Below, in pieces: positions 25,042 to 64,000 of a stretch of DNA of 64,000 nt. Within the stretch, counting starts at the first letter, position 1. Every line of letters starts with the position of its first letter. The DNA comes from Bacteroidia bacterium. Lineage in GTDB: Bacteria > Bacteroidota > Bacteroidia > UKL13-3. The stretch spans positions 62,001 through 126,000 of the forward strand of contig JAIOYZ010000009.1 of NCBI GenBank assembly GCA_021740845.1. Direction: 5' to 3'. The notes beneath the pieces were generated by a model, which saw nothing but the letters and a program-made list of their open reading frames with translations, ran no database searches and was not told the origin of the DNA. A program made the translations under genes and the position numbers.

Positions 25042-25116
25042 TGGTAGTCTCGACGAGAATCGAACTCATATCAAATGTTTAGGAAACATCTATTCTATCC
25101 ATTGAACTACGAGACC
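25042..25116 (-). tRNA. tRNA-Arg (anticodon CCU)
   Basis: 75 nt including an encoded CCA. On the minus strand the acceptor is GGTCTCG paired with CGAGACT (first pair G-T). The D-arm is GTTC/GAAT-like with loop AATGGATA. The anticodon arm is GATGT TTCCTAA ACATT with anticodon CCT, and the T-arm is ATGAG TTCGATT CTCGT. It decodes AGG. The transcript ends at the hairpin 25011-25040. The DNA 5' of the gene contains three tandem partial copies of its first 40 nt (25126-25350). Confidence 0.95.
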
Positions 25117-25125
25117 ATTTTTTTT

Positions 25126-25350
25126 GTTTAGGAAACATCTATTCTATCCCCGCCCGACTGAGCGTTGTTCGGGCGGGCATTGAACTACGAGACCATTTTT
25201 TTTGTTTAGGAACCATCTATTCTATCCCCGCCCGACTGAACGTCGTTCGGGCAGGCATTGAACTACGAGACCATTTTTTTTGTTTAGGAACCATCTATTC
25301 TATCCCCGCCCGACTGAACGTCGTTCGGGCGGGCATTGAACTACGAGACC
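25126..25350 (-). repeat. Tandem array of three truncated tRNA-Arg 5' halves with D-loop hairpin inserts
   Basis: Copies lie at 25126-25194, 25204-25272 and 25282-25350, with an exact 78-bp period. Each contains the first 40 nt of the adjacent tRNA-Arg (acceptor 5' strand, D-arm, anticodon loop with CCT) and lacks the 3' half. Each has the same 29-nt insertion in the D-loop, between ATG and GATAG. The insert folds as CCCGCCCGA...TCGGGCGGG around a short AACG-AC-GTT core. The copies are joined by an eight-base A/T run. The two outer copies share a T-to-G change before TTCCTAA. The intact gene lacks the insert. Confidence 0.9.
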
Positions 25351-25462
25351 AACAATTCACAGAAATTTCTTTGGTTCAAACCGCCAAAACCCCTAAAATC
25401 TGCGCGAAGGTAAGGATATTTTCCTTTTTGTAAATGCTTCTTTTGGTTCAAACCGAATTATT

Positions 25463-59946: not shown

Positions 59947-60870
59947 GTGCGATTAAAATTAGCCTATATCCTAATTGGAATTTCTATCCTTCCTCCTGTT
60001 TTGCATGCGCAAGATAGAATGGTTCTAGTACCCAATTTAGATACCCTTTTTGTGCAGGTAAAAGAGATTGGTTCAGACCAAATTTTTTATTACACTTGGA
60101 ATGAACGCGAGCAACAAAATTTGTTGAGCATAGAGAAGAACAAAATAGGAAGGTTACTATTGGAAGATGGCAGGGTATATAGGTTTGCAGAGATTAAGAA
60201 CCTTCCTGTTTACAAAGAAATTTACCCCAAATCTGCTTTTAAATTTGATTTTTTTTCTACCTTTTATGGAAGTACTCATTTGGCTTACGAGCATAGGTAT
60301 AAACCAAGAAATTCCTACGAGTTTGGTATTGGATTTTTAGGTTTGGGATTTAATAAAGACCTAAGCGGAAATATAGAAGGATTAATGTTAAGGGCGTCCT
60401 ATAAGCACTATTTAAAACCTTATAACCTTAGAAAACGAGATTTTCCACAGCAACTAAAAGGCTGGTATTACCGAGCAGATTTTTCTGCACATGGATATGT
60501 GCAAGATGAATTTGTTTTGCATATTGATAAATACACCTATATCCCAGGAACGACCATCTTTTCACTACACCGTACCGACAAACATTACCGGAGGTATGGC
60601 TCTGCTTTGGTTCTTAATTTTGGGAGACAATTTCTAATTAAAGAAAAGATTTGTTTGGATTTATTTTATGGAATGGGTTGTGGATTTGGTGGACAAAAAG
60701 TACTTCACCGAAGCGAATCTTATTATGAGGAAACGGGATATAAGTGGATGGATACAGCAGATGATTTAGGCGATTCTTCTCTTGGTGCGGGCTTTAGTAT
60801 TAACCATGCCAAAGCTGTTTCATTTGCTTTCCAAATTGGGTTTAAGGTGGGGTATTGTTTTGATTGGTAG
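59947..60870 (+). CDS. Exported outer-membrane-like hypothetical protein
   Basis: The start is uncertain: GTG at 59947 or TTG at 59941 directly precedes the signal (LKLAYILIGISILPPVLHAQ), and the frame is open from 59896. About 307 residues. The N-terminal part contains LDTLFVQVKEIGSDQIFYYTW and LLLEDGRVYRFAEI, a pattern also present in the small protein at 62396-62890 (a strand pair describing a response to an allele-like signal). The rest is Tyr/Phe-rich with a final barrel-type strand (FAFQIGFKVGYCFDW). A hairpin array starts 37 bp downstream. The function is unknown. Confidence 0.55.
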   Translation: MRLKLAYILIGISILPPVLHAQDRMVLVPNLDTLFVQVKEIGSDQIFYYTWNEREQQNLLSIEKNKIGRLLLEDGRVYRFAEIKNLPVYKEIYPKSAFKFDFFSTFYGSTHLAYEHRYKPRNSYEFGIGFLGLGFNKDLSGNIEGLMLRASYKHYLKPYNLRKRDFPQQLKGWYYRADFSAHGYVQDEFVLHIDKYTYIPGTTIFSLHRTDKHYRRYGSALVLNFGRQFLIKEKICLDLFYGMGCGFGGQKVLHRSESYYEETGYKWMDTADDLGDSSLGAGFSINHAKAVSFAFQIGFKVGYCFDW

Positions 60871-60907
60871 GGGGGCATTTGGCTTCGGGGGGAGAGAGAG
60901 GCCATTT

Positions 60908-61160
60908 GGGGGATTTGCCTTCATGGGAGAGAGGGGGTCGGTCTAGCCCGACCCGTACGGGTGCAATGTGGGGGATTTGGCTTCATGGGAGAAGGGGTTG
61001 GTCTGGGCCGACCCGTACGGGTGCAATGTGGGGGATTTGGTTTCATGGGAGAAGGGGTTGGTCTGGGCAGACCCTTGCGGGTGCCTATTGGGGGATTTGG
61101 TTTCATGGGAGAAGGGGTTGGTCTTGGCAGACTCTTGCGGGTGCCGATTGGGGGATTTTG
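60908..61160. repeat. GC-rich hairpin repeat array 1 (about 60-bp units)
   Basis: Units begin with GGGGGATTTG at 60908, 60970, 61030, 61090 and 61150, so the period is 60 bp after a first spacing of 62. The unit ends with hairpin-forming sequence: GGGTCGG...CCGACCC, then ACCCGTACGGGT. Later units drift toward TTGG, CAGACC and CCTTGC. A decayed start of another unit lies at about 60871. The run is much richer in G than its surroundings. It stays open in several frames because the units are stop-free and their length is a multiple of three. Confidence 0.8.
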
Positions 61161-61257
61161 GTTGGGTGGAAAATGATTAGGGATGGAATTTCATTTTGCT
61201 GGATTTTTTTCTGTGTTACAATAAAAGTGAATATAATTTGTAATTTGCCTCTACAAT

Positions 61258-61731
61258 ATGAAATATAGTCGTCTAATTGTATTTGCCTCATTCCTATCCA
61301 TACTCTTTGCAATGAGCTCTTGTGTTGGCCTTGATGATGGGCCTAGGACTTACTATACCTATGAGCAATATGTCCGTTTTGATGATACCAATGAAGTTAT
61401 TCATGCCATCTATTATCCTCAAGCCAATTTGATGGATTCCATTAAGGGTAAGCAAGGAATGTTGAAAGTATCAGAAAACTTTCCTACCAAAGCAGTGGTT
61501 TATAGCGAGCATTTCACTTATACTTTTACGTTTAATAAGAAATTTACTTTCTCCAAATCTTCCTACAACGGTCCAAGAAGAAATGATTATGAAAAAACCT
61601 ATGATGGGTTTGAAGTGCAAGAAAGCAATGCCATAGAAACAAAGCTTATCAAATCGCAATTTGAGGATACAAAGAATTATAGTGGTTGGGGTTATCATTA
61701 TTTTGTACAAGACATAGTTGTGGTAAAATGA
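61258..61731 (+). CDS. Small lipoprotein, first gene of a four-gene operon
   Basis: A 157-residue protein with a lipobox (FAMSSC, Cys about residue 22). The mature part is Tyr- and Lys-rich with no recognised domain (YYTYEQYVRFDDTNEVIHAIYY). It overlaps the next gene by ATGA, and the next two junctions are also ATGA, so 61258-63456 is one operon of four envelope genes. The array of hairpin repeats lies 100 bp upstream. The function is unknown. Confidence 0.6.
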   Translation: MKYSRLIVFASFLSILFAMSSCVGLDDGPRTYYTYEQYVRFDDTNEVIHAIYYPQANLMDSIKGKQGMLKVSENFPTKAVVYSEHFTYTFTFNKKFTFSKSSYNGPRRNDYEKTYDGFEVQESNAIETKLIKSQFEDTKNYSGWGYHYFVQDIVVVK

Positions 61732-62890: not shown

Positions 62891-63456
62891 AACTTCTTTT
62901 AATCCTATTCGTTTTGCTAAGTTGTGGTTTGGAAGCCCAAATTTTAACAGTGCCCAAGGTGCATTTTACCAACCAAAAAACAGGAGAGGAGCGTGCGTTT
63001 TTATTGGGCAGAAATGCGTTGGTGAGTCTTAAAAAGGTGCCAGCTAAGAAAGATAAATTTCCTTCCTCTTTGGATGCAGAAGGAAAATTGTACACACTTA
63101 AATTGACCCAACAAAATGGAACGGATCTAATTTTTAATGATAGTATTTATTTGTCGATTGACGCTATTGACTACTTGGTTTTGAAACAAAATAGAAATGC
63201 GGCGAGGTACACTTTTGGAGTTTTAAGTGTGGCAGGATTGGGAGTTGTGGTGGCAATGGATTCTAGAGTTGCTTTTTTTACAATGGCGTTTTATCCCTTA
63301 TCCATTTTGTATTTTAATGCTATTACCAAAGATAAGTTGTATACCCATACCTGGAAATTGGAAATTCAGCATTCGCCGGAGTTGCTTTTTCCAGAAAAGA
63401 ACACCTTGAATTATGGGTGGTGGCCGGATTTGTTTGAGAGATATTCTAATAAATGA
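62887..63456 (+). CDS. Small exported protein, fourth gene of the operon
   Basis: A 189-residue protein with a signal (LLILFVLLSCGLEAQ). KTGEERAFLLGRNALVSLKK and YLSIDAIDYLVLKQNRNAA form the soluble part, followed by two hydrophobic segments (FGVLSVAGLGVVVAM and VAFFTMAFYPLSILYF). The layout parallels the third gene and suggests distant paralogy. It is coupled by ATGA. The second hairpin array begins 20 bp after the stop. Confidence 0.5.
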   Translation: MKLLLILFVLLSCGLEAQILTVPKVHFTNQKTGEERAFLLGRNALVSLKKVPAKKDKFPSSLDAEGKLYTLKLTQQNGTDLIFNDSIYLSIDAIDYLVLKQNRNAARYTFGVLSVAGLGVVVAMDSRVAFFTMAFYPLSILYFNAITKDKLYTHTWKLEIQHSPELLFPEKNTLNYGWWPDLFERYSNK

Positions 63457-63476: not shown

Positions 63477-63867
63477 TGGGGGATTTGCCTTCAGGGGAGA
63501 AGGGGGTCGGTCTAGCCCGACCCGTACGGCTGCCATATGATTGATTTGGCTGGGAGGGGGAATGGGTCGGGCGAGCCGAGCCTTACGGCTGCTATATGAT
63601 TGATTTGCTTTGAGGGGGAATGGCTCGGGCGAGCCGAGCTTTGCCATTGCCATATGGGGGATTTGGCTGGTAGGGAGAATGCTTTGGGTTGTGGCGTGAT
63701 TTGCGTTTGGTGGGGGATTTGCCTTGGGGCATGAGAAGGGGTCGGTCTAGACCGACCCTTACCATTGCCATATGATTGATTTGCCTTGAGGGGAGAATTG
63801 CTCGGGCGAGCCGAGCTTTGCAGGTGCTATATGGGGGATTTGGCTTTGGGGGAGAGATTCTAATTTT
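63477..63867. repeat. GC-rich hairpin repeat array 2 with compensating arm changes
   Basis: Seven imperfect units of the same family as array 1, starting GGGGGATTTG or ATTGATTTG, most ending CCATAT or CTATAT. The stem takes two matched forms: GTCGG/CCGAC (63506-63525 and 63739-63758) and CTCGG/CCGAG (63623-63639 and about 63800-63816). At 63739-63758 the stem is a perfect 20-bp palindrome, GGGTCGGTCTAGACCGACCC. A second small hairpin follows in some units (ACCCGTACGGGT or AGCCTTACGGCT). One unit around 63655-63710 has lost the hairpin. Confidence 0.8.
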
Positions 63868-63909: not shown

Positions 63910-64000
63910 ATGAAATTATTTACTCCGCTTCTTAGCTTGCTGCTTTTTTCTAGTTTGTTTTCTTTTGGACTTAGGTTCGAACCAAAACATACCTCAGCTA
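63910..64000 (+). CDS. Exported protein (3' partial)
   Basis: An ATG at 63910 opens a frame that continues past the window end. Only about 30 residues are visible: a signal peptide (FTPLLSLLLFSSLFSFG) and the first residues of the mature protein, LRFEPKHTSA. The motif variant GGTTCGAACC, a perfect palindrome, lies at 63974-63983 and encodes RFEP. Nothing can be said about function. Confidence 0.5.
   Translation, partial: MKLFTPLLSLLLFSSLFSFGLRFEPKHTSA

Follow-up and report, generated by a model that had tools for sequence, protein, structure and literature searches.

Tandem hairpin arrays near putative exported-protein genes

What are the G+C-rich hairpin units that stand in tandem near the end of the 64-kb window (i.e., the whole stretch of DNA analysed here, 64,000 nucleotides), and to which kind of element do they belong? 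Six units with a spacing of 56–62 nt, here called array B, occupy 63477–63867 of the window sequence, in the gap between an ORF that ends at 63456 and the next ORF, which starts at 63911. Both N termini are signal-peptide-like when read by eye, in agreement with an earlier, sequence-only reading of this locus that had placed the units between exported-protein genes and had described them as far richer in G+C than the rest of the window. Their G+C is 55%, vs. 36% for the window. The ORF upstream of array B has no Pfam match, and the upstream 189-aa gene has no relative in the genome collection. A sister array, array A, which that reading had overlooked, lies 2.6 kb upstream of array B and is flanked on both sides by degenerate half units. 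The features are as follows, where the strand is that of the foot (GTAN-hairpin) and the units of array B are described from their sequence.

60908–61149, minus strand: array A, sister of array B, four units (A1–A4) of 60–62 nt; hairpins at 60935–60954, 60995–61014, 61055–61074 and 61115–61134, with feet GTAC, GTAC, GCAA and GCAA, respectively
63477–63867, minus strand: array B, six tandem REP-like units (B1–B6) with G-rich linkers
63504–63527, minus strand: B1, hairpin GGGTCGGTCTAGCCCGACCC at 63504–63523, foot GTAC
63564–63586, minus strand: B2, mixed stem GGGTCGG/CCGAGCC with one G–G mismatch, foot GTAA
63622–63644, minus strand: B3, stem form CTCGG/CCGAG, degenerate foot GCAA
63657–63712, no strand assigned: B4, unit with a decayed hairpin
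63739–63762, minus strand: B5, perfect 20-nt palindrome GGGTCGGTCTAGACCGACCC at 63739–63758, foot GTAA; top match in the window of a model built from REPs outside it
63799–63821, minus strand: B6, stem form CTCGG/CCGAG, degenerate foot GCAA

On the minus strand, each unit presents a foot followed by a palindrome, which is the layout of a GTAG-type REP. The foot is GTAC in A1, A2 and B1 (GTAC-GGGTCGGGCTAGACCGACCC being the foot and hairpin of A1 and B1), GTAA in B2 and B5, and GCAA in A3, A4, B3 and B6, while GTAG and GTGG occur in none. The perfect stems of 6–8 bp fall within the 20–40 nt hairpin-forming palindromes of GTAG-type REPs. Array B contains four perfect hairpins with arms of at least 6 bp, a number that not one of 300 dinucleotide shuffles attained (mean 0.39), and B5 folded as single-stranded DNA yields −9.1 kcal/mol (z −3.4). 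The earlier description of two paired stem forms within one array was confirmed, with GTCGG/CCGAC in B1 and B5 vs. CTCGG/CCGAG in B3 and B6, the stem of B2 being mixed and that of B4 lost, as was its perfect 20-bp palindrome, which is B5. The most similar pair of units across the two arrays is formed by their first units, A1 and B1. All units of both arrays point in the same direction, and the two inverted REPs of a REPIN are thus not found in them.

An ORF at 60864–61268 spans array A, since a period of 60 nt, being divisible by three, preserves the reading frame, which would allow the array to be read as a coding repeat of 20-aa units. However, this repeat has no Pfam match and the 56–62 nt units of array B break any frame, leaving such a reading with a practically negligible probability.

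Two further observations concern repeats near the arrays. Just past the window end (L001:2500-3150) lies an intergenic region rich in imperfect AAGCTTCGGCCTGCGAAGC-like palindromes. At 25042–25351, behind a minus-strand tRNA-Arg (CCT) gene, the 5′ half of this gene is partially repeated about three times in tandem with a unit of 78 nt, and a G+C-rich palindrome (CCCGCCCGA...TCGGGCGGG) splits every copy; it looks as if the palindrome entered a tRNA fragment before this was multiplied.

Pairing of the stems and the second hairpin

The sequence-only reading had proposed that paired changes keep the fold. Within the ten units of arrays A and B the support is thin and concerns a single base pair of the main stem (alignment columns 30–45), the only one changed on both sides, a count equalled by 418 of 500 shuffles. 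The paired cells of the main stem nevertheless amount to 90%, vs. 83.5% in the shuffles (reached in 3/500), and the covariation score was reached in 9/500. It is in the wider family, described below, that this proposal finds its support.

Seven one-sided stem changes, which represent about four events, all replace C with T when read on the plus strand. These changes bear on the possibility that the hairpins are kept as RNA, i.e., as 3′-UTR or attenuator structures of plus-strand transcripts of the exported-protein genes: all seven produce G–U pairs on the plus strand, where the minus strand would carry A–C, and both arrays follow closely behind a stop codon on the coding strand. However, mutational bias could explain the same changes, which are too few to separate such a bias from RNA pairing. 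Moreover, Rfam gave no match, the hairpins are not followed by a T-run, and the hairpin class recurs at unrelated sites, i.e., inside a coding gene (C63), beside groEL and beside a RAYT gene. We therefore regard selection as RNA as quite improbable.

A second hairpin had been described in ACCC/GGGT and AGCC/GGCT forms, a claim that stands in part. Array B nowhere contains a perfect ACCC/GGGT form, whereas array A does (e.g., ACCCGTACGGGT at 61011), and the AGCC/GGCT form was located in one unit of array B (63579–63590). The second hairpin is fully paired only in A1–A4 (with a G–U pair in A4) and in B2, and is imperfect elsewhere; in the alignment, three of its pairs are changed on both sides. 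Its 5′ arm is the 3′ arm of the main hairpin, and because the arms overlap, the two are mutually exclusive. The second hairpin is best read as a conserved flank, GTACGGGTGC, that abuts the G–C-rich stem, and the case for REPs made here does not rest on it, nor on the similarity of the G-rich linkers between the arrays.

Kindred palindromes elsewhere in the genome

Searches for the whole unit, by BLAST of its own genome and by a covariance model of the arrays (R1), matched only arrays A and B. BLAST of 18 relatives from the genus returned none, R1 over 63 relatives found nothing convincing, an exact search for the flank CCCGTACGGGTGC across the order (64 genomes) found it in its own genome only, and viral contigs, plasmids and phages gave no match. 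Based on BLAST and R1, the arrays were at first read as a purely local minisatellite, a reading overturned by palindromes on contigs C53 and C40. These had appeared as two sub-threshold R1 matches, which, when judged by eye, proved to be kindred palindromes. C53 carries two copies, in which GCAGTAA or GCAGTAT (feet GTAA and GTAT) precedes GGACAGGTCTAGACCTGTCC. At C40:30839, GCACCCGTAC is followed by GGGAGGGTCTCGACCCTCCC, and the 13-nt flank CCCGTACGGGTGC is identical to that of A1 and A2, whereas several pairs of the stem are different, as would be expected for hairpins under structural constraint.

A further kindred palindrome lies at C63:45144, and the pattern GGTCNNGACC occurs 19 times in the genome, vs. 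8 for the reversed pattern. Sites with long arms are at C40:100330-100507 (three), C53 (two), C40:30854, C63:45149 and B5, and a shorter one is at C29:179410. In total, a search-based census, which may miss diverged copies, counted about 18 hairpins distributed over 6 or 7 places, and whole array units are not dispersed. Uniqueness to this spot, which the earlier reading had named as evidence against itself, is half true: whole units are confined to the two neighbouring arrays, and the hairpin class is not.

Two of these sites have neighbourhoods of their own. The palindrome at C63:45144-45163 (L159:1145-1164) is inserted in frame within a gene, close to its N-terminal end, and adds a TGLDLPLP-like peptide; the gene product looks beta-propeller or S9-peptidase-like and exported. 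On C40 (L052:4640-4840), the single REP has a further, distinct tandem array beside it, made of short AGCCTTCGGCT hairpins and a GGACAGATTATGC linker; a transhydrogenase-like gene precedes this array.

The G-rich linkers raise the question of whether a G-quadruplex, rather than the hairpin, was selected. Runs of GGG reach 49–72 per kb on one strand, compared with 5.8 in the rest, and with loops of up to 12 no part of the window has G4 motifs except arrays A and B, while the REP clusters of C40 and C53 have such motifs as well. However, restricting the loops to 7 leaves one motif (63552–63571), the single REPs at C40:30839 and C63 have no G4 motif, and G-rich tandem DNA is expected to hold G-rich tracts in any case. 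A G-quadruplex element is thus very unlikely.

A RAYT gene beside a palindrome cluster

RAYTs belong to the HUH/Y1 endonucleases; in single-stranded DNA, their target is a hairpin together with the guide tetranucleotide at its foot, and the movement or amplification of REPs is ascribed to them (PMC6006769, PMC2817692). The sequence-only reading had suggested looking for a RAYT gene elsewhere in the genome, and such a gene does accompany the kindred palindromes: a 208-aa RAYT ORF at C40:100695-101318 lies about 190 nt from the three-palindrome cluster (GGACAGGTCGAGACCTGTCC) upstream of it at C40:100330-100507. The Pfam scan of the genome missed this ORF, which was located by reading downstream of the palindromes. 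Its product matches Y1_Tnp with 25.1 bits (cut-off 23) and NCBIfam REP_Tyr_transpos with an E-value of 4e-12 and 46 bits, the latter under the cut-off of 80, and matches no solved structure by sequence. It contains PDHVH at 76, WQ at 164 and YITDNP at 185, corresponding to the HUH, WQ and YIxNNP motifs of subclass 2.4, with the long HUH–Y distance of that subclass and, as in some relatives, a D in place of N before the first H of HUH. Judged from these motifs, the protein appears to resemble subclass 2.4, or RAYT group 4.

The RAYT-adjacent GGACAGGTCGAGACCTGTCC palindromes belong to the same class as B5, with a different distal stem; at least three distal pairs differ between the stems of the arrays (GGGTC, GCTCGG) and the RAYT-linked stem (GGACA). 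The expected substrate of the C40 RAYT is GTAA-GGACAGGTCTCGACCTGTCC. Four more Y1 transposases, on C54 and C32 (L005, L006, L007, L008), have palindrome types of their own nearby (CCCAGGGTTAAAAACCCTGGG, GACCCCGATGGGGTC, GGTGCGGATTTGCAATCCGCACC and GGCGAAGTCTGTGACTTCGCC), which are quite different, and these enzymes were ruled out as partners.

The palindrome family in the genus and beyond

A search of about 85,000 genomes found GGRYMGGTCTAGACCKRYCC in 61 stretches, many in Patescibacteria and Omnitrophota and some in Bacteroidetes, with a GTAG foot at 61 of 120 positions vs. 0.3% in nearby sequence; some matches (Sphingomonas, Streptomyces) are without the foot and probably unrelated. Proteins about 40% identical to the C40 RAYT occur in Patescibacteria and one further bacterium, and there the palindrome lies in frame between HUH and Y. 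This in-frame REP within the RAYT gene is present in the homologues L098, L111 and L070 and absent from the C40 gene.

Within the genus, the closest RAYTs (41–46% identical) are flanked by GGACAGGTCGCGACCTGTCC and, in G009, by GGACAAGTCGCGACTTGTCC; the feet of these flanking REPs are GTAG, GTAA or GTAC, and in many cases both sides carry one. Around distant RAYTs (24–36%), other palindromes or none were detected, e.g., GGGCGGATAATTATCCGCCC with TTACGG (L177). Of the eight genomes that have a close RAYT, seven hold 8, 24, 17, 5, 11, 19 and 5 palindromes, and the eighth, G002, whose best RAYT match is partial, holds none, whereas all 11 genus genomes without a close RAYT hold 0 or 1. The Fisher p of 1.6e-4 for this link treats related genomes as independent and relies on a definition of "close" (E below 1e-19) that was chosen after the data were seen. 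The number of palindromes thus tracks the RAYT across the genus, and the REP/RAYT suggestion of the earlier reading is partly supported and right in direction. G002 also carries, at C172 (L179:2156-2322), a more distant RAYT gene with an internal stop and four tandem palindromes upstream at 46-nt spacing; tandem REP-like arrays therefore recur in the genus.

Evidence for compensated stems comes from the same family. Sites with two mismatches are fully paired in 15 of 21 cases (7 of 12 distinct forms), vs. about 2% for random substitution pairs, although the sites are non-independent, and in G009 the same compensated change is found in all five copies found. In the REPs from outside the window, both partners have changed at four of the nine stem pairs; these REPs were chosen by palindromic pattern, which makes the percent paired uninformative for them. 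A model built from 28 REPs, zero of them from the window (R2), ranked B5 first in the 64-kb window with 22.3 bits and an E-value of 2.2e-4, where R2 E-values are rough because of a short calibration. The second and third matches also lie in arrays A and B (E 1.2 and 2.6) and are not significant alone.

These results weigh on the alternative of a plain G-rich minisatellite, i.e., slippage of a 60-nt unit that has a palindrome by chance and no link to a RAYT. The confinement of whole units to two arrays 2.6 kb apart, the strongly G-rich linkers and the clear involvement of tandem copying all agree with this alternative. However, the palindrome and foot recur in the genome with other linkers and with compensated stem changes, and B5 is recovered by a model built from elsewhere, making a plain minisatellite improbable.

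Comparison with known REP systems

The closest known system is TnpA-REP, or RAYT subclass 2.4 (group 4; PMC6006769). The C40 RAYT and its homologues share the [ND]H[IFV]H, WQ and YIxNP motifs with a variable insert between HUH and Y; the hairpins are likewise long with a G–C base, and double feet (GTAG...CTAC) surround the RAYTs of the relatives. The in-frame REPs inside Patescibacteria RAYT genes are a further likeness, as in-frame insertion of a REP in the RAYT gene is a unique feature of subclass 2.4 (PMC6006769). Unlike the REPs of that subclass, the window units have weakened feet and diverged stems, and form direct tandem arrays far from the RAYT.

With GTAG-tagged REPs (PMC3733652) and RAYT-flanking REPs (PMC2817692), the units share a palindrome of the 20-nt class, an unpaired GTAG-like end, a position after coding regions and the co-variation of RAYT and REP, and REP clusters in tandem with flanking DNA have been described in this literature. 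The window units differ in copy number (about 18 here vs. often more than 100) and in the GTAC/GTAA/GCAA feet of the arrays, and match none of the sequence families in these studies. For REPINs (PMC3116915), the proposed class of mobilising enzyme is the same, whereas a REPIN is an inverted REP pair and the direct repeats of arrays A and B lack an inverted partner. The feet, the divergence of the array stems from the RAYT-linked stem, the significance of B5 alone with R2, the low copy number, the NCBIfam score of the RAYT below the cut-off and the lack of an inverted REP pair count against the assignment of the arrays to REPs of this kind.

Origin of the arrays

The unit anatomy, the kindred genomic REPs, the RAYT gene beside one REP cluster and the genus-wide link between RAYT and palindromes are established, and we consider it probable that arrays A and B represent tandem REP clusters, local in extent and in part decayed, of the GTAG-foot kind tied to RAYT subclass 2.4 (group 4). 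The action of a RAYT on these exact units and the step of tandem multiplication are what we infer. The unit, read on the minus strand, consists of a guide-like foot, ancestrally GTAN, and a hairpin with a G–C-rich base, with a GGTC/GACC core in the best preserved unit. A RAYT, i.e., an HUH/Y1 single-strand DNA endonuclease for which C40:100695-101318 is the candidate, would once have cut and moved such hairpins, and a REP of the C40-RAYT-type family may have been seeded between the exported-protein genes. The REP and its G-rich linker would then have multiplied in tandem, probably through slippage or unequal recombination, one array deriving from the other, and point mutation would now be eroding feet and stems.

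A second, possible though unlikely, reading takes the arrays for an older sub-type of REP that tandem copying keeps alive, its RAYT having disappeared or acquired another specificity. It is suggested because the REP stem and the RAYT change together within the genus and because one compensated change is carried by each of the five copies found in one genome. If true, the arrays would document, in nature, a switch of targets by a RAYT.

The kind of system is already known, and the RAYT–REP example here is new; this REP family was not found in the limited open literature and may nonetheless be described. While the window arrays themselves are minor relics, they lead to a RAYT–REP system in a little-studied lineage, beyond the well-known proteobacterial cases. 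Its natural stem variants, GGACAGGTC, GGACAAGTC, GGGAGGGTC, GGGTCGGTC and GCTCGG, together with the matching RAYTs, form a set that suits tests of how a RAYT reads its hairpin and of how REP families diverge.
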